From positions 446,501-510,500 of the forward strand of contig NC_091675.1 of assembly GCF_042453785.1 (NCBI RefSeq): a stretch of 64,000 bases of DNA, read 5' to 3'. Position 1 is the stretch's first letter. Each line of letters begins with the position of its first letter. The translations under genes were made by a program, and so were the position numbers. Positions 1,736 through 31,484 of this stretch are shown piece after piece. This DNA is from Malus domestica (lineage: Eukaryota; Streptophyta; Magnoliopsida; Rosales; Rosaceae). Below the pieces are notes generated by a model. The model had not been told where the DNA came from, did not search any database, and worked only from the letters and a program-made list of their open reading frames with translations.

Positions 1736-3326
1736 TCATTAGTGTGGATAAGTATATAAATGGATAGAGATAGGAAAGCAAACACAAGATGTACGTGATT
1801 CACCCAGATTGGCTACGTCCACGGAATAGAGGAGGGTTTACACAAGTACATAGGTTCAAGCTCTCCTTTAGGGAGTACAAGTGAATGATTTAGTACAAAT
1901 GACTTTAGGAAATATTGTGGGAGAATGATCTCGTAACCACGAAACTTCTAAGTCCCGGAGTGTGATATCGGCTTGACTTTCCTTATCTGTCTCATAGGTA
2001 GATGTGGAATCTTCTCTGGAAGTACTCTTCCTCCATCCAGGGGTGGTATCTGTAACTGGTGGAGATGCACAAGGTAATGTATCAATGTCACTTGAAGCTT
2101 ACTTGTAGTTTCAGGCTTGGTCAAGCGCGATACAAACCATGTAGTAGGAGTCCCCCAAGTCGCCGAGCTAGGGGATCTGCTGAAAGAGGTAACAGACAAG
2201 GTAAGCAATCAGAGCTCCGGCTGATTGTTCACATTCTCCCTATCTTGCAGGCAGCATGAAGGATAAAGAGAAGAAAAATGAGAAAAGATGATATGGGATA
2301 CTTTTGCTTTTGAAGAAGTAACTTTCCACAGGCTTATTCTTGAACTGGGCTGGAGGGTTTTCTGGTTTCCTCCAAAGTATAAGGCCGACTGAAGAATTTG
2401 AGGGTCAAAACAAGTCCATCAAATCTAGAGTACGTTCGACCCTGCTGATATGGGATACTTTTGCTTTTGACAGAGTAGTGGATGTATCGGCACGTGTGCT
2501 GTTACGCTTGTCTCCACATGCTTCCTTGTATCCTTCTCACTTGCCCTATCTGTTCCTCAGGCAGATGCGGTATCTTCCTTGGGAGCATAAGATGTTGAAG
2601 ATGAGTACTCGAGAGCAATGCCAGGGTAAGGGGTTCCACGCAGTCAGTTCCTGGCTGGAAGCTTGATTCCAAGTGCTGACTGATTGCTCTCTTTCTCCTT
2701 GTCTTGCAGGTAAGAACAAGGCCAAAGGAAAAGACAGGGAAAAAGCATGATATGAGATACTCTTGCTTTTAACCCTGATGATATGAGATATTCTTGCTCT
2801 AGTATAGCTTGTTTACAGAGGTATTATCGGGGGGAAAGAAAGCTGAATATTTCGAAAGGCTTCGTTGGGAGTGCCCTCTCAGATAAGAGGAAGGGTTGAG
2901 CATTTTTGCAGGTCTGCCTGTCCGTTGGGGATGGAGGTCGACATATATAGAAGTCTCCCTAACATCAAGTAATAATGCTATTCCTTTACCCTGCTTGGTC
3001 ATAGCACGGTAGTGGGAGCTGCCAACTTCACAAGTTTTAACTCTGTCAGAGCACTTTGAAAAAGTGGTCTGTGGTATCTGGAAAGCTGATGTTGCGTGTG
3101 AAGATTACAGACAAGCTTTATCCAAGGAGATCCGGCTCTTGAAGTTGGGAAAGTGGTGCCTCTTCGGTTTTCGAACAAGCAATCCTGTCAGGGATCTGGC
3201 TCTCGAGATTCGGAGAACGATGCCTCTTCGATTTTTGAGAAAGCAATCATGCTGGGGGTCTGGCTCTCGAGATTCGGAGAACGGTGTCTTCGATTTTTGA
3301 GAAAGTAATCATGTTGGGAGTTGGGA

Positions 3327-20063: not shown

Positions 20064-21544
20064 TTATCTTTGGCTGAATAAGTCGTTAATGCACTTTTGG
20101 AGTAACTTTGGGACTAATAACTTGTAAACTCTTTCAGTTGGATGATAACTGTCCCAGAAAACGTACTCTCTGGTATTGTTGCATGTGTTTGGTGACAATC
20201 GATTGCACAATCTGACTACCTCTATTCTTCCTGTTCCACAACAACCTTTGTCTTCAACTTTAAATCCTGCATGCATAAATTCATCAGACTTCACGTAATT
20301 AACTTGGCTAGGAGAGTGTGTCACATTTGTACCCAAGTGTGTTTTCGATTGGATTAGAAATCGCTCGAATGAAAGAAGCAAAATGTAGATATAATTGAAT
20401 TAGTACCATATTTTTGTGGCTTGAGGATGATATCCATGAGTGGACGGTAGACATCCATCAAAACCACCACTTTGGCATGGAATAGCTGCTTGTTAAGGCG
20501 GTCCACCTCCGCGGATAGCTTGGAGTTGAACAACTCTGCTGCTTGATTGTATCTCGCAACACAATTTCTTTCTGAACCTCCGTCTACAGTTCTCATTGAT
20601 GGCAAACATCCAACCGGCGGTAGCCCAGAAATGACAATCCTCCGTGCTCTCGATGCATATAATTCCTTAGTTTAGTTTATATTTAATTAGTTCTGCTTTT
20701 ATAACATGTTTACATACTTGGAACCAGAGAAGTTGGAAGTATATACCTGCAGGAAGGCTGAAGCCTCGACCACCATAAAATCAGTGTAGGCATCTATATC
20801 GTATTGCAAGGAGCGTGCAGGTGTATGAAAGTAGGTATTCACTAGGTCGTCACTGCCTGTTACCACAAAGTGTAGGCTCTTGCTTACAATGCTCTTTGCT
20901 CTCTTTCCTCCAACATAATTTTTCAGCTTCTCTTTGTATTCTTTCAGCAGTAGTAATTGTTCTGATAGCGGTATAACAGACTGAATATGATCATTTGTTT
21001 TATCATACTATTCAGCAAAATATGACTAAAATCAAGAAAAAAAATGAGTACATGTGTGTACCATCATCTCAGATGTTAATGGATCAAATCCTGAAGCGCC
21101 TGAAGCAAAGCTTACTCCGGTGGGAAAGTCCTTCTTTTGGAGACTTGGATCAAGATACGCCGGCAAAAGTTTTTTGATTCCCAGTTCCTCCACTGAAAAA
21201 AGAATTAATTAGTAGCCGATAACATTAGTAATTAATTTGATTAGGACTTGTATTATGTATGATAATATATGATTAAGAGATTATTACACACCAAAGATGT
21301 CTGAGGGCACCTTGCCATTGCCAAATCTTCCGGTAGCTACTCCTCCCATAAAATCTCTTCCATATGGGGGAAAATTGCTTTTAATAATTGTTACAAGGTT
21401 GTTGTTGTTGCCTGTATCAACGGTTGAATCCCCGAACATAAAAACAGCAGGAATTGTAACATTTTTTGGTAGCTTCACAGTTGCTTGGGCAGTAGAGAAT
21501 ATCAGGTCTAGAGAACCAAGCAAAAAGAAAAATAAACTGGTCAT
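20064..21544 (-). CDS. GDSL esterase/lipase, EXL3-like, locus 1
   Basis: Five minus-strand exons (21544-21292, 21192-21062, 20980-20747, 20665-20407, 20266-20064) encode 359 residues, the usual length. GDSL/SGNH enzymes hydrolyse acyl esters; EXL-type members are secreted and often act in anthers or cell walls. The first in-frame ATG opens a signal peptide ([14 protein letters not shown]). Block I is [13 protein letters not shown] with the nucleophile Ser. Block V is DSYHPTE with the catalytic His. In block III the motif reads [13 protein letters not shown]: the oxyanion-hole Asn of the usual GSND is Asp here, whereas the other loci in this window keep Asn. Introns at identical positions and phases join it to loci 2-5, though its sequence is clearly more diverged. 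All junctions are GT-AG and in frame, so it is expressed-gene-like but may be catalytically altered. Confidence 0.88.
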
Positions 21545-21793
21545 TGCAGCTAATACTGCAGGAGAAAACAATGAAGTTTTCTCATGATTCGCATTATGTA
21601 TGGAATTATAAACACGCAAGAAGAATTCACCATATGTGTGAGTGTCAGTTGCGTGACTTCGGGATCAATTGCTTGCAGGGATCTGTTACCGCGCATGCAA
21701 AAGGCGTGCTTTCTGATCATATTAATTGAAACACTCTAAAATGCACCTACAAAATTCATCGTTTATTCCCCTGCATGATAGTCCTAACCATAT
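21545..21793. promoter_or_regulatory. Upstream region of GDSL locus 1
   Basis: Only 250 bp separate the ATG from the gypsy-like element. The start of this element at 21799 may truncate the native promoter or supply new regulatory sequence. No sharp TATA box was identified. Confidence 0.35.
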
Positions 21794-21798
21794 ATAAG

Positions 21799-22925
21799 TG
21801 TTGACCCTAAAAACTACCAAGCTTACGTGGTGCGCAGGCCGAGTAATCTATGAGCTAACTATGTCCTTCGGTTGAATGTGGGGGCATGCCAACTCGTCGG
21901 CCGAGGAGTAAAATATGCTGATGTTGTGTTGAGTGCGCGGCTGACTTCTGCGTATTGCGATTGCGACCGAGGAAGGAACACGTCTCGGCCTTTTGGGTTT
22001 TCGAACCTGAAGACAAGGCTACTATTCTTACGAAGTTCACAAATCGTCGTCGTCGGATTCGGTCACAATGATGGTATTCGTCAGAGTAAACTCACACCGA
22101 ATCGACACCAAAGTGTAAGGGCACAAATACTCAAAGTGGATATATGTCTTAGCAATAAACGTGGTTCGGCCGTCGGAATGCCGAACTCTAAATCCCACTT
22201 GAGAGTATCCAATCATAAACTAACTCGGCGTGCAATGTGCCGAGCCTAATAAACTGTAACACCTCACTTCGCCTAGACGGCTAATGAGATGATCTCAACC
22301 AATAAGGATTCGGAAATCCTTTTCGATCGAGACTTGGATAGATAACCAGTCACCCTCGATGTATTGCTATCTATGCCGACTGAAGATGCTGCGAGACCAA
22401 CTGGTTCTACGGTGACAGTGCTATCTATGCCGACTGAAGATATCACCGGTTGCTTTCACAGTGCTGTTTTTCCAAACTGAAGGTGTGTCGGCGAAAGGAA
22501 AAGCAAAAGTCTCAAGGTAGTTGAGAGAATTTGCGCAGGGCAGTTGTGTGTTGAATTGAAGGGGGCTTGTTTTAATGTCTTCTCTCCCTATTTATAGCAG
22601 CCAACCTGTATTGAATCCTATTCATTCCTGGATTAGAACTCTTTCTTATAATCCATCTTTATCTCGACTAATCCTATTCCTACTAGGACTTTGAACACAA
22701 CTCATTATAAACCGTGTTCAATCTCAGCATCCGGATCCTGTCAAAACTCCCTCTCATAACAAGATTCGTCCACATTCCTCTTTCCGATAGGATATGATCC
22801 ACTTCGACTGCTTGGCCCATGGGCTAAATAACTTCTGGGCCGAGGATGAATTTAACCTCGGCTTATCTCATTCTGGACCGAAACAGATTTAACTCGACCC
22901 AAAACAGTATTTTTAGGCCCAAACA
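21799..22925 (-). repeat. 3' LTR (left copy) of the gypsy-like element
   Basis: On the plus strand it begins TGTTGACCCTAAAA and ends GGCCCAAACA. It shares colinear blocks with 28978-30113 such as cgaatcgacaccaaagtgta and tctccctatttatagcagcc (a TATA-like region). Direction follows from the adjoining purine tract. Confidence 0.9.
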
Positions 22926-23297
22926 TTGCCCCCTTGCTTTTGAGGTCGTCAACCAATACTCTTTAGTTCGAGCCTCGACCTTGAAGAAGTGAAACCGACT
23001 CTCAGGAACTGCCACTACGCGCACTTATGAGGCGTGATACCTCAATCTCGATTTACAAACCGTCATGTTGTGTGTCAATCCCCTGGTTACCCTAGCAGCC
23101 TTTAATCATGATCCTCGAAACCATGCGACCGTCGAAACGTCTCTCTTGCATTAAAATCGCCGTAACACGCCATCATGCGTCCTCAATCTGTGAAAATCTC
23201 GATCCTCTCGCCTCGATTTTCTGATTGTGTACAATGATTAGCATATCTCCAGCTTGATTTTGAAAATCAACCGTTTAGCATTCCGTTCCTAAATGCT

Positions 23298-23305
23298 TAT
23301 AAATA
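23298..23305 (+). promoter_or_regulatory. TATA box of the antisense gene
   Basis: TATAAATA lies 133 bp before the ATG at 23438 on the strand opposite to gag. It is followed by a pyrimidine-rich leader with repeated TTTCTTTCC-like words. It suggests the antisense gene has its own promoter instead of depending on the LTR. Confidence 0.5.
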
Positions 23306-23437
23306 CCTAGACTTTTCCATTCATACCTTACGCTCTCTCAAACCTTTGAAATTTTCTTTCCGTTCTGTTTTCTTCTAGAAAAACTTCAAAAACAAGGATT
23401 CTTCTTGTTCATCTCAGAAATTTCTAACCTTTCTCTA

Positions 23438-24511
23438 ATGGCTTCCTTTGTATCACAACTCTCTTCTGAGTGCGACAAGTGCAATGATTTCATTGATCAG
23501 CACGCTATCAAAACTCTGCGTTTCGAAGGTGAGTCCAACACTACTCACCAAGTTCTGGGCCTACTCTTCAAGGATACAGTGCCGTCATCCATCACCAACC
23601 TGTTCAAAAAATACTGTTTGACAGGTTTGCTGCAAGGATTCGATTGGTTGAAGTGGTGCCAAACAAAACCCCAAGGATCCTGGCCTTCACCCAATGCAAA
23701 CTGGGTGGCATGGGTCATTCGAATGGAAAAGTTCTTTGGCAAAGAGTGGAAAACTCTTGGTATTTACGACGCAATTAAGTTCTCGACTATGGAGATTACA
23801 ATGGATAAAGAGCTCCTCATGGCAGCTTTTAGCCTCTGGTGCTCGACCACCAACACCTTGGTCCTTCCATTTAGTCCTATGATTCCTACCATCCTTGACA
23901 TCTTGGCTATTATTGGGACTTCTCCTTCCGGCATCCCGATCGATGCTACCCTTATTGGATGCCCTTCTAACCTTGATCTCAAGGCGTTATTCGATGATCA
24001 AGCCATCGAGACGTTGAGCCAGGAAGGTCAAGAGCCTTCAAAAGTCGATGTTCAGAAATTGCACAAGAATTTCCTAAACTACAACACCCTTATCCTCCAT
24101 TTTGCTAGTCGAGGAGAGGCGAGCCTTCAGAAGGGGGAACACGAGGCCTTCCTGTTCTACTGGTATAACAAATTCATTTGTTGTACCAAGTCAAACAAAT
24201 GCTTGGTCGAGAACATGCCAGTAGCAGAAGCCCTAGCTAGTGGCCATTCTTTAGCACTTAGCTCCGCCATCATTGCCAACCTTCTTCGTTGCTTGGCTGA
24301 GACGACCCTTAACAAGGTTGACCCGCACCAGAATGGACCCTTGTGGATGTTCCAACTCTGGCTGCAGGTTTATTTCTCCACGCTTCGGCCAGAAGTCTCT
24401 AACCTCCAGTCTACTGTAGCGCTCGACCTTCAATTGGCCTCTCGACCAGTGCCTCATCATCGAGCCGAAGAAGTCTTCAAATGTCTCTTCGACCTGGATG
24501 TCTTTTTTTGA
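23438..24511 (+). CDS. Plant mobile domain (aminotransferase-like) protein in the element
   Basis: The ATG at 23438 opens 357 codons. The region from about residue 70 carries features of the plant mobile domain family (PF10536): W-x-x-W spacing in FDWLKWCQ, then WVAWVIRMEKFFGKEWKTLGIYDAIKFS, TLVLPFSPMIPTILDILAIIGTSPSG, a HFASRGEASLQKGEHEAFLFYWYNKFICC block and ALSSAIIANLLRCLAE. In host genes (MAIL1/MAIN type) this domain acts in silencing and genome stability; the same domain is widespread in plant transposons. Here it is antisense to gag within an LTR element. The frame is intact over the whole domain although gag is riddled with stops, so it may have been maintained longer. Downstream exons at 24512-26733 look like its continuation. 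The family call is from motif memory. Confidence 0.72.
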   Translation: MASFVSQLSSECDKCNDFIDQHAIKTLRFEGESNTTHQVLGLLFKDTVPSSITNLFKKYCLTGLLQGFDWLKWCQTKPQGSWPSPNANWVAWVIRMEKFFGKEWKTLGIYDAIKFSTMEITMDKELLMAAFSLWCSTTNTLVLPFSPMIPTILDILAIIGTSPSGIPIDATLIGCPSNLDLKALFDDQAIETLSQEGQEPSKVDVQKLHKNFLNYNTLILHFASRGEASLQKGEHEAFLFYWYNKFICCTKSNKCLVENMPVAEALASGHSLALSSAIIANLLRCLAETTLNKVDPHQNGPLWMFQLWLQVYFSTLRPEVSNLQSTVALDLQLASRPVPHHRAEEVFKCLFDLDVFF

Positions 24512-26733
24512 TGATGAATTTTTGATATGTCGTCGTCAAGAATATCCTTGCTCCACCAGGCTTCCCACATCGACTTGGAGTGACAGTGAGGAAGCTGCTT
24601 TTCGTCAAACTTGGAGTGACAGTGAGGATGCTGCTTTTCGTCAAAACTGGGGGTCATTCGTGTTAACTCGCGACCTTCCCCTTGGTTGTGATGCTCATCG
24701 GGCGAGTTGGGAAGTCTATCACCCCCACTTTGCTGCCCGGCAGCTCGGGTACTTCCAAGGTTGCCCATTGCCTTTACTTTGTTCTCGCTCCCTTTTGACC
24801 CGAGGGCGCGTCTTTGGTTCTTCAGAAAGGGAGTGTAGAGACGCCGAAAAAGAATTTTAGGAGCGATGCAAGAAATTTCATCTTCGACCAAATTCTCCTG
24901 AGTCTCTCGGCACTCATATCTTCAGCGACTAGTGGGAAGAATATACGCACGACTTTTTTGGCACTTCAGTTGAGGATCAACAAAATATTTGGTGATCGGC
25001 CCAAGAAACCCTTCGCCCCTCAATCTAAAGAGGCGCCTCAAGGTATACCCTTGTTTCTACCTATATTTTTCTTTTAGACATTTGGGTAATTCTATTAACG
25101 GGACTTTGATTTCTTAGGTGGTCGGGTACTAAAACAGACGGATGTGGTCGCCCCGGTAGTGGTCAAGAAAAAACTGGCCATTTCCTCCAAGTCGACCACC
25201 GTAAAAATCTTATTGAGCAAATGACCTCACCCGGTTACCGAGACGACAGGCGAAACTCCTCGTCCCTCGAAACTCGTCAAGAAATTGGCGAAGAATGGAG
25301 CTCGAGAGATTCATGTCATCTCCAACCATACCACTGGGATAACCGCCTTAAGTGCCTCTCATCCCGTTCCTGTTGCTCAGACTTCGGCAGATAATCGGCC
25401 TTCTCTGGCTGGCCCGGTAACCCAAGCTCAACCAACACCTGAGGTCCCCAGGGTAGTGGTTGAGCTAGTTGCTGCACCCTCGGTTGACTTGCCTGCAGCT
25501 CCAGGGTCAACATGAGTACCTGTTCTGGGGAAGATGACTTATTTGACTAGAAAGGATCTCTCCAGGAATCTGAAGCATTCGGTGGTCATTTTAGAAGAGG
25601 TATGATTACGTTGTCAACTCCATTTGTTTATTAAGTATCGAACAATTTTTAACACTTTTGTTTTAGGATGATGGGAGTGACGAGACTCCGCTGGCAAGTC
25701 GCTATCGACCAATCCAGGCTTCTTCCGTTGATCCTCTCCCCGTGTTTAAGGCAGCCGATCAGGTTGATCCTCCGACGGCCGATCACGGAAAGAAGCCTAT
25801 GGTCGAGCCTGAAGCAATATCAGAAACTCCACTTCACCCTCAGGATCACGACCTCGCCATCCCTCATCAAGAAGTGACCTCGACTTTTGTAAGGCTCGAT
25901 TACTTTCTATTGTCAATTTGTTATAACATGTCTGAACCGAGAAAATATTAAATGTCAGGTGCCCACCCATTCTTTTCATCAAAAATTCTACGCGTCGAAA
26001 GGTGTTATCTATATTTCTTGGCCGCCTCAGTGGCCGTCGAACGTAGATAACCTCCATAAGCTACGTGAACTGAGAAGCAGTCTAAGACACTGGGCTTGGT
26101 CATTAAGTTCTTTAGGTTCGAGCAACGAACTTGAAGACATGGCCGAAGTCTCCTCTCGGCAGGTTTAAAACAAAAACCTTCTTGCTAAATGCTTTCGTGA
26201 TTTCTTTGTGCATAAAATGATTTTTGTGTGCAGCCTTCATGGGAAGTCGAGTTTAATGCTCTCTTGTCAAGTACTTCTAGAGCGGCTGGTCCTTCGGTCG
26301 CTACGACTGCTCCTGCCGACTTAGCTGCTCTGGTTCGGTTGTAAGAAGTTTTGTCTCTCTCGGCGTCACAAGTCCTTAAGCGCAAAGGTCTCGATTTGTT
26401 GGGTGCATGCCTAAACGACCTTGGAGCAGATGGTCAAATGAGCGCCGAGGCTATCGTTCAGGCGTCGTCCGCCTTGGAGTGAGTTCAGGAATCCTTTAGT
26501 GTTTCAAGAACGCTATTCGGGCTGATAATGATTTGAAAGCTGCCCTGGCCGTCCAAGACACTCTTCATCCGAAGATCGATGCTTTAAAGGCAAAATGGGA
26601 AACCTTGGCTGACCTCGACCGTCAAATGGCTGAACTGGCAAAACGAAGGTCGGCTATCGCTTCTGAGCTTGCGAAGGACTTCGAGTCGGGTGGCAAAGAT
26701 TATTTAACCAAGTATGCAGTGAACGCTGTCTGA
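24512..26733 (+). pseudogene. Downstream exons of the antisense PMD gene
   Basis: Plus-strand coding blocks follow in order with intron-like gaps. A block with RDLPLGCDAHRASWEVYHPHFAARQLGYFQ (about 24660-24760) is preceded by a 36-bp tandem duplication (TWSDSEEAAFRQ twice, 24571-24642). Next come an exon after TTCTTAG (25120) and an exon at 25666-25887 between TTTTAG and GTAAGG (beginning DDGSDETPLASRYRP). An exon begins after GTCAG at 25959, and another after GTGTGCAG at 26233 (PSWEVEFNALLSS). A Leu/Lys/Glu-rich coiled-coil end finishes at 26733. Stops and frame changes between blocks mean it is at least partly decayed, but exon-intron structure is still visible. Confidence 0.5.
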
Positions 26734-26800
26734 CCGATGTAGGACCATCTGTCTGTTTCCTTGGGCTGAGCATGTCGAATACATTTTTACGCTGGCCTTC

Positions 26801-27320
26801 ACTAGGTTCCTTTAAAGGTTTCACCGTAATCGTCGATTAGTGTTGTGATGTCGACATCTGCATCGGAGGCAGTTTCCTCTTGCCTCAGTTAATACAACGC
26901 GTGCCTTACAAGTGCTACACAAAACTATCGGCCTGCCATTTCCATCTTCACTGGAGTCTGACATGGACTCAACTATGGCAGGTCCTGAGAGTTCGGTGGG
27001 TGGTGCATTAGAAAACAAGTTGATCTTGAGTCAAGGTTAGGAACATTTCTTTAGGATATATGGTACTATTGGCCCGCCATTTTCTTCGTCGTTGTAGTTT
27101 GACATTGGTTCAACTATGGCCGGTCTTGAGAGCTCGGTAGGTGGCGCGTTGGAAAATAGGTCGATCTTGAGTCGAGGCTGGGAGCTTTGCTTTCGGATGT
27201 GTTGTACTAGGGCAAAATCGACCTTCTCTTTTCCTTTGTTCTTAGGCAAACGGGCGTCTACCATGCTGATTGTCGCTGAAGGGAATGGATCCGTATCAAC
27301 CGTCATGCGTTTTTCAGGAA
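26801..27320 (-). repeat. Duplicated gag-derived segment
   Basis: Minus-strand peptides at 27018-26821 and 27306-27037 share FSNAPPTELS-PAIVE-MS and a following E(D/E)NG-PIV phrase. They show a roughly 210-bp tandem duplication within the element, downstream of gag. Confidence 0.6.
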
Positions 27321-27323
27321 ACT

Positions 27324-28975
27324 TTAACTTGCCTTTGTCAATCCAGCTCTGGATATCATCACGAAATATGACACAATTGTTTGTCGCATGCTTTGTCTAG
27401 TTATGGTATTTGCAATATGTCTTCCCTTTTCGGCCTTGGGAATATTATGCCTTGGCCGAAGTCTGATGATCTTTGCTGATAGCAATTGATCGAAAATTGT
27501 TTCGACCTTTGTAATATCAAAAGTGTAGACTTTCGATATCTTCGCTGTTTCTTCCGTGGCCGAGCGAGTTTTAGCTTCCTTGGAATTAATCTGAGTCAAT
27601 GCCTTGCAGATGTATGATTTATCTATTACTATCTCGGCTGCGTCCACGCTGACGTATTGGGACTCTTCACATTCGGTCGATGCATAACTAACCGTGGGGT
27701 TTTTGTAAATCGTCCATCGGGATGGGGGTTTCAAGATCTTCTCTTCTCGGAGAAAATGATCATATTGCTCGACATGCTGGGCTAGTTCATACATATCTCG
27801 AAAGTTTGCCCCCAAGAATTTCTTTTTGTATTCCACGTCGAGGCCGTTCAGAGCAAGTCTAACAAATTCGACTTTGGGTAGAGGCACTCGGCACCAATTC
27901 CTGGCCGATTTGAATCTGGTAAGATAATCCATTGGTGACTCATCAGATGCTTAGGCCTTCCTTGCTAATGAAGAAACTGACATTTCCATCCCTGGCCGAT
28001 AAAACTGCTCGTGAAATTTCTCGACTAACTCCTCCCAACTTTGGATAGAATTAGGTAGGAGGTTGATATACCAGGTAAATGCTGAGCCGATCAATGAAAA
28101 GTTGAACAACCGTAGCTTATGAAAGTCACTATTAACATCTCCACATTGCGCGGTGAAACGAGCCATATGTTCTAACGAAGATAAGGACGATTCTCCAGCG
28201 AAAAAGCTAAAATCTAGAATTTGAAACCTTTAGGGTATTCGAATGTTTCCACATATGCTGGATACGGATGGATAAATTTAAGGAACTTCAACCCATTTTT
28301 CATGGCCGAATCAATCATCCGCTGGACCTCGGTCATATCAACGGGTATTGTTTCCACTCTCTGGTCGGATCCGTCTGACCTACTATTCGATCCTCTTCTT
28401 GTTTCTAAGTTAATTGGTTTGAGCCGAGCAGGGATTGGCTCGGCTTGCACTATTGGTAACAGATTATTTCTTGGCGGTAATTACCGGGAAAAATCGGACC
28501 TGTCGTCGCTGACCTTTCTAACCAGTATTTCAAGCAATCTGGTTTGTGTCTCACTGGTACTGCGTATTATGTCGTGCAGTTTATCAATTCCTCAACTAAA
28601 TGTCTATTCAACCATCCGAGACTGTTCGTCAAGTGGTCTTCGAAGAAACGATCTTGTTGGTGGATCAAAGTCTTCACTACCATCTTCATCACAGTCCTCT
28701 ATTATCCCTTCATTGAGAACGCATGTGTTTTTGTTATGGATTTCTAGACTGCGAAGCTGACCGCCGAGATTAACTTTCATTTCTTTACGGGTCACGCTTG
28801 TGGATTCAGGTGTCACGGCGCTAAGAGGATTCTTCGCCCGTGGTATATTTTGTCCTATGTTCTGAATTGGCAAATCGGTCGTTGATTTTCCCATAGCTGT
28901 TTTCTTTTTAACCGATCGTGTTTCAATTAGCATGAACTTCGTAGTTTTAGCACTGAGTCCCATTGGGCGTGCCAA
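27324..28975 (-). pseudogene. Degenerate gag of the gypsy-like element
   Basis: Starting right after the primer-binding-like site, minus-strand frames give a Ser/Arg-rich N-terminal part (28975-28604) and a segment with VEMIDSAMKNGLKF-like sequence (28450-28214). A retrotransposon-gag core follows (28166-27951: ARFTAQCGDVNSDFHKLRLF, then AFTWYINLLPNSIQSWEELVEKFHEQF). The C-terminal gag (27932-27324) has LTRFKSARNWC, FVRLALNGLD and MYELAQHVEQYD. Each junction has stops or frame changes. The W-Y-x-x-L-P and W-x-x-L-x-x-x-F-x-x-x-F spacing is the usual Ty3/gypsy capsid signature. No zinc knuckle or protease DTG motif follows. Confidence 0.78.
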
Positions 28976-28977
28976 AA

Positions 28978-30113
28978 TATTGACCCTAAAACTACCAAGC
29001 CTACGTGGCGCGTAGGCCGAGTAATCTATAAGCTAACTACGTCATTCGGTTGAATGTGGGGCGTGCCAACTCGTCGGTCGAGCTTGGCCGAGGAGTAAAA
29101 TATGCTGATGTGTTGAGCGCGCGGCCGACTTCTTCGTCTTGCGATTGCAACCGATGAAGGAACACGTCTCGGCCTCTTGGGTTCTCGAACCTGAAGACAA
29201 GGCTACTATTCTTACGAAGTTCACAAATCGTCGTCGTCGGATTCGGTCACAGTGATGGTATTTGTCAGAGTAAACTCACACCGAATCGACACCAAAGTGT
29301 AAGGGCACAAATACTCAAAGCGGATATATGTCTTAACAATAAACGTGGTTCGACCGTCGGAATGCCGAACTCTAAATCCCACTTGAGAGTATCCAATCAT
29401 AAACTAACTCGACGTGTAATGTGCCGAGCCTAATAAACTGTTACACCTCACTTCGCCAAGACGACTAATGAGATGACATCGACCAATAAGGATTCGGAAA
29501 TCCTTTTTGACCGAGACTTGGATAGATAACCAATCACCCTCGATGCAGTGCTATCTATGCCGACTGAAGATGCTGCGAGGCCGGCTGGTTTCACGGTGAT
29601 AGTGTTATCTATGCCGACTGAAGATATCACCGGTTGCCTTCACAGTGCTGTTTATCCAAATTGAAAGTGTGTCGGCGAAAAAGGAAAAGGAAAAAGTCTC
29701 AAGGTAGTTGAAAGAATTTGCGCAGGGCAGTTGTGTGTTAAATTGAAGGGGGCATGTTTCAATGTCTTCTCTCCCTATTTATAGCAGCCAACCTGTATTG
29801 AATCTTATTCATTCCTGGATTAGAACTCATTTTCATAATCCACCTTTATCTCGACTAATCCTATTCCTACTAGGACTTTGAACACAACTCATTATCAAAT
29901 CGTGTTCAATCTCAGCATCCTGATCCCGTCGAGACTCCCTTTCATAACAGTATTCGTCCATATTCCTCTTTCCGATAGGATATGATCCACTTCGACCGCT
30001 CGGCCCATGGGCTGAATAACTTCTGGGCCGAGGATGAATCTAACCTCAGCTTGTCCCATTCTGGGCCGAAACAGATCTAACTCGGCCCAAAACAATATTT
30101 TTGGGCCTAAACA
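28978..30113 (-). repeat. 5' LTR (right copy) of the gypsy-like element
   Basis: Colinear with 21799-22925; on the minus strand it begins TGTTTAGGCCCAAA and ends in GGGTCAATA (TA for CA at the inner end). It contains tctccctatttatagcag near 29770 as a TATA-like region. Confidence 0.9.
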
Positions 30114-30254
30114 ACAAGTGAACCTTAAAAATAAAATTGATATGAAGGAGTGCTACTACTTTTTTTTTGTGAATATGCTTTATGTAACTTTTTACAAGAA
30201 TTTAGTTTTGTTAGTACTTCAGGTGCAATTATGTTTCTGTTCCTGCACCACAAC

Positions 30255-31275: not shown

Positions 31276-31484
31276 GGACAATGATTGTCTGCCCTCCACT
31301 TCCGGTGCCCTCCATGTGCCCTCATGTTTTGTGTGGTCACGGTTAAGCCACGTCAACATTTTATATTGTTTTTTTATAGATATAATAAGACAAAAATGAA
31401 TAGTAATATAAAATGTTAATGTGGCTTAACCGTGACCACACAAACAGGAGGGCACCGAAAGTGGAGGGCAAACAATCCTTGTCC
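31276..31484. mobile_element. MITE with 9-bp target duplication, Mutator-like
   Basis: The 209-bp element has long terminal inverted repeats: ggacaatgattgtctgccct... at the left against ggacaaggattgtttgccct... as the complement of the right end. The inverted similarity continues to the middle (gtggtcacggttaagccac). It is flanked by AGAAGAGAG at 31267-31275 and 31485-31493. Copy B near 60390-60405 has the site once and no element. A 9-bp duplication plus long TIRs fits Mutator-like MITEs. Confidence 0.88.

Follow-up and report, generated by a model that had tools for sequence, protein, structure and literature searches.

The window analyzed here is a 64,000-nucleotide stretch of the apple genome (Malus domestica, contig NC_091675.1, positions 446,501 to 510,500), and it contains at 21801-30113 an old, defective Ty3/gypsy long terminal repeat (LTR) retroelement of the Tat branch, lying on the minus strand. 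Against the direction of the element, on the plus strand, runs a multi-exon gene for a protein with a plant mobile domain (PMD). We consider it very likely that this is an old, defective Tat copy that carries a spliced antisense PMD gene of a kind kept by selection and that has undergone a pol deletion of its own.

The antisense gene of the window copy

Exon 1, which encodes the PMD (PF10536), spans 23438..25042 and is followed by intron 1, a 75-bp GT-AG intron (25043..25117) placed by alignment with other copies, in which its GT is kept in 42 and its AG in 43 of 45 rows. Exon 2 falls into two parts, the first (25118..25599) a linker that alignment and the ratio of nonsynonymous to synonymous substitution rates (dN/dS) characterize as weakly constrained, the second (25667..25888) delimited by alignment; between them lies a family-specific intron of 67 bp with 27% GC (25600..25666). 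Next come the second intron of the shared set (70 bp, 25889..25958), exon 3 (204 nt, 25959..26162), the third shared intron (71 bp, 26163..26233), and exon 4 (26234..26733), which looks coiled-coil-like by eye and which dN/dS and comparison with a close relative, locus L009, delimit as an exon shortened by a deletion. An earlier sequence-only reading of this DNA had pointed to exon-like blocks with AG/GT borders, and these are accounted for by the four GT-AG introns.

The same reading had proposed a TATA box on the plus strand, and its position turns out to be nearly fixed among relatives. The motif TATAAATAC (23298..23306, plus strand) stands about 370 bp inside of the LTR and 140 bp upstream of the ATG, and TATA[A/T]A occurs at -140 to -155 from the ATG in 43/43 upstream stretches, those of diverged families included; since the copies are related, this number is not a probability. 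The upstream rows printed read TATAAATAC, that of L025 with a further T. L015 and L016 are left out of the count, and the ATG of L009 is taken about 12 bases late. For a single shuffled sequence, the chance of one such match in the stretch is 0.11.

The start of exon 1 is open for 357 codons (23438-24508, plus strand), and this frame matches PF10536 with an E value of 5e-31 and 108.6 bits, the curated cutoff being 34.9, so that the predicted domain has withstood a profile search. The match covers profile positions 1-196 of 347, whereas the open first exons of relatives run to about 520 codons and cover positions 1-347. Past 24508 the window exon is broken, with a frameshift at a run of T near 24500 and a continuation in another frame that holds two stops and a further shift. 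At the other end, the stop near 26733 arises from a deletion junction; in L009 the frame continues, and the deletion that took the 3' end of the gene is the one that took pol. With exon 1 broken and the last exon cut off, the window copy is unable to make the full protein, and an intact PMD gene in this copy is rejected. Of the intact 357-codon PMD frame claimed before, the length and the domain stand but the intactness does not. Searches with the L024 antisense exon against solved structures gave no match at E values up to 1, and an NCBIfam search returned nothing meaningful.

It had also been remarked that the PMD part is open although gag is full of stops. This is literally true, but it is weak evidence for longer constraint on the window copy, because exon 1 is broken beyond this stretch. 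The PMD stretch of the window is stop-free, while 32/32 other full rows with at least 70% protein identity carry 2-10 stops, with a mean of about 5; one further copy of the window's own family, in two pieces in this stretch, has 4 stops and none. Among 33 copies that average about five stops, a single stop-free one is only mildly unusual and does not demonstrate that this copy was constrained for longer.

Introns and coding constraint among relatives

The host genome searched comprises 651 Mb in 19 contigs. In a PF10536 search, 117 of 1,706 candidates were scored and 118 matches listed, about 99 of which appear, as judged by row shape, to be of the window-gene type; the window copy is not among these. 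We compared 48 regions, 44 of them relatives of the window gene with 61-83% PMD protein identity to it and four (L011, L012, L013, and L016) diverged or other. The gene alignment accordingly has 45 rows, the 44 loci plus the window, with L016 (28.8% identity) left out.

Introns 2 and 3 have their GT and AG in 45/45 rows, and no row of the 45 lacks either intron. Across nine rows, their border columns are invariant in 8/8 cases, compared with 47/134 interior columns (Fisher p 4e-4), and in six rows their G+C content is 0.26-0.39, compared with 0.44-0.59 for exons 1, 3, and 4. Intron lengths vary among rows, also by non-multiples of three. With splice phases of 1, 0, and 0, exon 1 is open in 37/45, exon 2 in 35/45, and exon 3 in 44/45 rows, the frame reference being L024; in the count for exon 2, the window and L009 are scored as not open, partly due to their extra intron, and L014 has an indel of its own. 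Exon 4 stops at 204 codons in three of six copies, the others stopping at 45, at 166, or beyond the fetched end.

That introns read from the opposite strand can survive retrotransposition, as the sequence-only reading had argued, agrees well with these rows, which include copies with a close twin: a relative at least 99% identical over the gene region exists for 13/14 and 16/19 copies in two large 97% clusters, and for 0/3 in a third. The genomic RNA would be the other strand, on which the introns would go unrecognized and so pass through reverse transcription. The absence of any loss of intron 2 or 3 among the 45 rows is what is expected if the genomic RNA is the opposite strand.

The 67-bp intron behaves differently. 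It splits codons that are contiguous in 8/8 copies of other families (L-E/D-E, then S-E/D-G-S/N-D-E). L009 has it too, and 39 other listed places in the host genome match through it at nearly full length (40 of 144 candidates scored), in a search whose query included the intron and which therefore favors intron-bearing copies. By comparison of these families, it would either have been gained in the family of the window copy or been lost in the others. Introns are absent altogether in a diverged family, L011 and L012, whose PMD is 21-24% identical (L012 compared) and in which the gene lies antisense to pol in L011: a single open frame of 941 codons in L011 and 960 in L012 encodes the PMD and then an end that looks coiled-coil-like by eye. 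In L013, of a diverged family as well, the PMD gene lies in two overlapping frames.

At the protein level, the gene appears about as constrained as pol. For exon 1, the four family representatives compared give dN/dS values of 0.07-0.19, which resemble the 0.08-0.10 found for pol in three pairs and are not near 1, the value that would have told against the PMD frame. For the same exon, the ratio is 0.08-0.11 in comparisons with the window, with dS near saturation; it is 0.05-0.20 in exon 4 and 0.07-0.35 in exon 3 for pairs with at least 5 synonymous changes. Exon 1 of L015, L017, L025, L029, L033, and L052 is broken and was dropped from these estimates. Between the window and L009, dN/dS is 0.24 (dN 0.071, dS 0.299). 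Neutral decay since both insertions is expected to amount to about 0.08 at all sites (LTR divergences of 0.072 and 0.083), so nearly all replacement changes in this pair could postdate insertion.

These observations bear on the possibility that the antisense transcript acts as RNA, as a source of double-stranded or small interfering RNA (siRNA), with the frame a relic. Such a role is raised for antisense open reading frames (ORFs) in a review (PMC7264820), and in tea 175 phased-siRNA loci are reported at PMD genes (PMC10673657). Protein-level constraint in exons 1, 3, and 4 makes it less likely, however. Exon 3 shows a third-position bias: of the 68 columns at each codon position, 14, 17, and 39 vary. 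In exons 1-3, every frame of the opposite strand is interrupted by stops, so that no sense frame accounts for the constraint on these exons. In exon 4, one opposite frame is stop-free (L024), and the constraint on this exon may stem in part from it. Altogether, we regard a role as RNA as improbable.

Several points weigh against a selected, spliced protein gene and should be set beside the evidence for it. Exon 2 is weakly constrained (dN/dS 0.33-0.99), and one exon 3 pair gives a dN/dS of 1.19, on 4 and 1 changes. At intron 1, the GT is not kept in 3 and the AG not in 2 of 45 rows, and the rows are related, so that 45/45 does not represent 45 independent observations. The copies were picked by PMD score, which over-represents open exon 1 frames; this choice did not bear on the introns or on exons 3 and 4. 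Finally, judging from the stops in all 32 other full rows, the gene is now dead in the window's own family.

The element, its relatives, and the missing pol

The LTRs lie at 21801..22925 (the 3' LTR relative to gag) and 28980..30113 (the 5' LTR), both on the minus strand and recognized by LTR alignment, with ends set by eye. By eye we also assigned the target-site repeat AAGTG on the left (21796..21800) and right (30116..30120), the polypurine tract (PPT) adjoining the 3' LTR (22926..22945, minus), and a stretch resembling a primer-binding site (PBS) that starts with TGG (28955..28974, minus). The gag region (27040..29032, minus) consists of at least five broken pieces; five align to L057, and one matches Retrotrans_gag at E 4.9e-7. 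The features of a Ty3/gypsy element, namely two LTRs, a 5-bp target repeat, PBS, PPT, and gag, are thus all found in the window copy, the right-hand AAGTG being set off from the element end by two extra bases. The PPT and PBS-like stretches and the Retrotrans_gag match place the element on the minus strand, as the sequence-only reading had it. A 145-bp stretch at the gag end (26924-27209) is tandemly duplicated with 78% identity, and the duplication is also present in L057. A tRNA scan of the window found no tRNA gene.

To the left of the element, a minus-strand frame at 21284-21664, which by its motifs we take to be GDSL-esterase-like, comes to within about 140 bp of it. To its right, at 31328-31444, lies an inverted repeat with 40-bp arms that are 95% complementary and 37 bp apart.

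The LTR pair has a Kimura two-parameter distance of 0.072 (62 transitions and 14 transversions in 1,118 aligned sites), which corresponds to an insertion age of 2.8 million years if the rate is 1.3e-8 substitutions per site per year, as in PMC6445120, and to 9.3 million years at the slowest rate tried. In a search for the window's own family, 40 of 687 candidates were scored, and the 39 places listed besides the window have DNA identities of 76-88%, by which the family is old.

The Tat assignment comes from relatives. In the angiosperm Tat group, Ogre/Retand, a second RNase H between RNase H and integrase is the marker (PMC6317226). On the opposite strand to their PMD gene, L010, L014, and L015 encode RNase H, another RNase H (RVT_3), and integrase; L010 has reverse transcriptase (RT) there as well. 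RVT_3 follows RT_RNaseH and precedes H2C2/rve in L014 and L015, and lies across two adjoining frames in L010. The pol order of RT, RNase H, and integrase is present in the relatives, with RT seen only in L010, L014 and L015 being cut before RT. With its second RNase H in these relatives, the element belongs to the Tat branch, Ogre/Retand group.

In all four longer loci (L009, L010, L014, and L015), the antisense gene lies between LTR and pol, which argues against a single capture of a host PMD gene of the MAIN/MAIL type by the window copy. The genome does hold other PMD genes (L001-L008) that could have served as a source. However, 40 further copies carry the gene, it also runs antisense to pol in the second, diverged family, and identity to L001-L003 is only 26-29%. 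We regard such a capture as highly implausible.

The families look recombinant. Between L024 and L051, dS is 0.65 in exon 1 versus 0.13 in exon 2 and 0.06 in exon 3, and their identity, 0.80-0.90 upstream of and within exon 1, is 0.90-0.96 past intron 1 as far as about base 3,150. L032 and L051 show a similar contrast, with a dS of 0.14 in exon 4 and the step near intron 1. Five loci have a gag side with 89-91% DNA identity to the window and yet only 64-68% PMD protein identity. The dS step and these loci point to recombination among lineages, with template switching as the probable mechanism.

The sequence-only reading described an element lacking pol. A profile search indeed found no pol domain in the window pieces scanned, but the element as such does not lack pol. 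The closest relative (the C4 relative; L009, L057) aligns to the window as far as 26726, and the alignment resumes at 26728; the 5,501 bases that it has in between contain a match to RT and, below threshold, one to the integrase zinc-binding domain. What the window copy is missing at the junction (26726..26728) are these 5,501 bp, comprising pol and the 3' end of the antisense gene. With the junction as query, 39/39 other places listed begin at the breakpoint (query base 224-238; 40 of 981 candidates scored). A copy bearing the junction should outscore these 39 places, and the deletion therefore looks private. The distance from the PMD side to the gag side is 3.5 kb in the window, compared with 9.1, 9.1, 10.8, 11.1, and 20.7 kb at five loci and 8.8-9.3 kb at five more. 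It looks as if pol was removed from the window copy by a deletion private to it.

Gag-only non-autonomous families go by the names TR-GAG and LARD. A propagating family of this type, with gag and the antisense PMD gene but no pol and moved by the enzymes of relatives, would fit the window copy in that it retains LTRs, a PBS-like stretch, PPT, and gag; L012, of another family, likewise has gag-protease-like sequence (sub-threshold) beside the PMD where L011 has RNase H and integrase. Yet the junction appears in no other copy among the 40 of 981 candidates scored, and there is space for pol in the closest relative as well as at the ten paired loci. With the pol-less junction not common to the 39 other listed places, we reject a gag-only family, to which we would give a very small chance, in favor of a private deletion in an old Tat copy. 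L012 itself (G000 C10:22688000-22697900), in the second Tat family with its open antisense PMD frame, has an RT start by eye next to the gag-protease-like sequence and is without the RNase H and integrase of L011, perhaps through an independent loss of pol.

A possible role and its relation to known systems

Taken together, the relatives have the layout LTR-gag-pol-[antisense accessory gene]-LTR. The accessory gene is located between integrase and the 3' LTR, in the direction opposite to gag-pol, and is preceded by the conserved TATA motif. Its four exons, five in the family of the window copy, would be spliced to encode a protein of about 1,050 residues (exon lengths summed), made up of the PMD, a loose linker, and a C-terminal coiled-coil-like part. 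The sequence-only reading of a spliced antisense PMD gene with its own promoter motif inside a Tat-type LTR element is supported by the anatomy, homology, intron conservation, constraint, and deletion described above; that the gene is transcribed and spliced in vivo, that its introns survive by way of the opposite strand, and that its protein has the role discussed below, we infer from sequence.

Accessory genes in this place and direction have precedents. Tat/Retand elements carry antisense accessory genes, such as the Retand antisense ORF with TRP28 (PF04195), maize Grande gene23, and RIRE2 (PMC11963269, PMC7264820), and antisense coding regions occur in all recently active Retand clusters surveyed (PMC11963269). 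The window gene resembles them in its position between pol and 3' LTR and in its antisense direction, but unlike the Retand ORF, it has a PMD instead of TRP28 and is spliced: exon 1 of L024 and L051 gave no TRP28 match at E values up to 10, only PMD. In the available text of the Retand paper (PMC11963269), a word search finds no PMD, mobile domain, or intron.

The domain, too, has been met in such elements. PMD-A clades are encoded by Gypsy retrotransposons across angiosperms (PMC5418596), PMD occurs in 57% of Ogre elements (PMC6317226), and among the atypical domains of Gypsy consensus sequences, examined in 10 to 40 species, none is more frequent (PMC9289625). The window gene is likewise a PMD gene in a Gypsy element, resembling PMD-A in its domain, and its type shares with PMD-bearing Ogre a PMD in an extra ORF of a Tat element with a second RNase H. 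The main text of the PMD-A paper (PMC5418596) does not contain the words "orientation," "opposite," or "intron" in a word search. For the exon-intron structure of the antisense PMD gene, we found no description in the literature searched, whose coverage excludes subscription papers such as the Grande paper. Steinbauerova 2011 is said to be a survey that treats extra ORFs in Ty3/gypsy elements. The suggestion that such a gene is under-described therefore holds for its spliced structure but not for PMD in Gypsy or for antisense accessory genes, both of which are in print. Apparently new are the conserved multi-exon structure, the pol-like constraint, the 67-bp intron in one family, and the intronless form in a second Tat family.

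What the protein might do can be approached from two sides. Selection keeps it about as strictly as pol, which argues that it serves the element, as retroviral accessory proteins do (PMC7264820). The Grande antisense gene has its own promoter and a nuclear protein (PMC7264820), and the product of the PMD gene would most likely also be nuclear and help the element, as proposed for gene23, the likeliest role being one in transcription or silencing. MAIN and MAIL1, host PMD proteins of clade PMD-C, have a part in transposon silencing (PMC7156037, PMC5418596). Interference with host silencing would be an attractive possibility, as the element PMD is the same domain as that of MAIN and MAIL1; its identity to L001-L003, host PMD genes not themselves assigned as MAIN or MAIL1, is low.

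A more far-reaching and quite tentative proposal would be that the Tat antisense gene is a multi-exon gene whose introns were gained and lost in evolution and that its PMD protein counters the MAIN/MAIL1 silencing pathway of the host. If so, intron loss would mean that spliced antisense mRNA is sometimes reverse transcribed and recombined back, and intron gain that an LTR element is able to acquire a spliceosomal intron. The case offers intron presence and absence inside one retroelement type. With many young copies in one genome that share conserved intron borders, TATA spacing, and constraint, the function of Tat antisense genes becomes testable with stranded RNA data, and their product may be a partner, on the side of the element, of those PMD proteins by which plants silence transposons.

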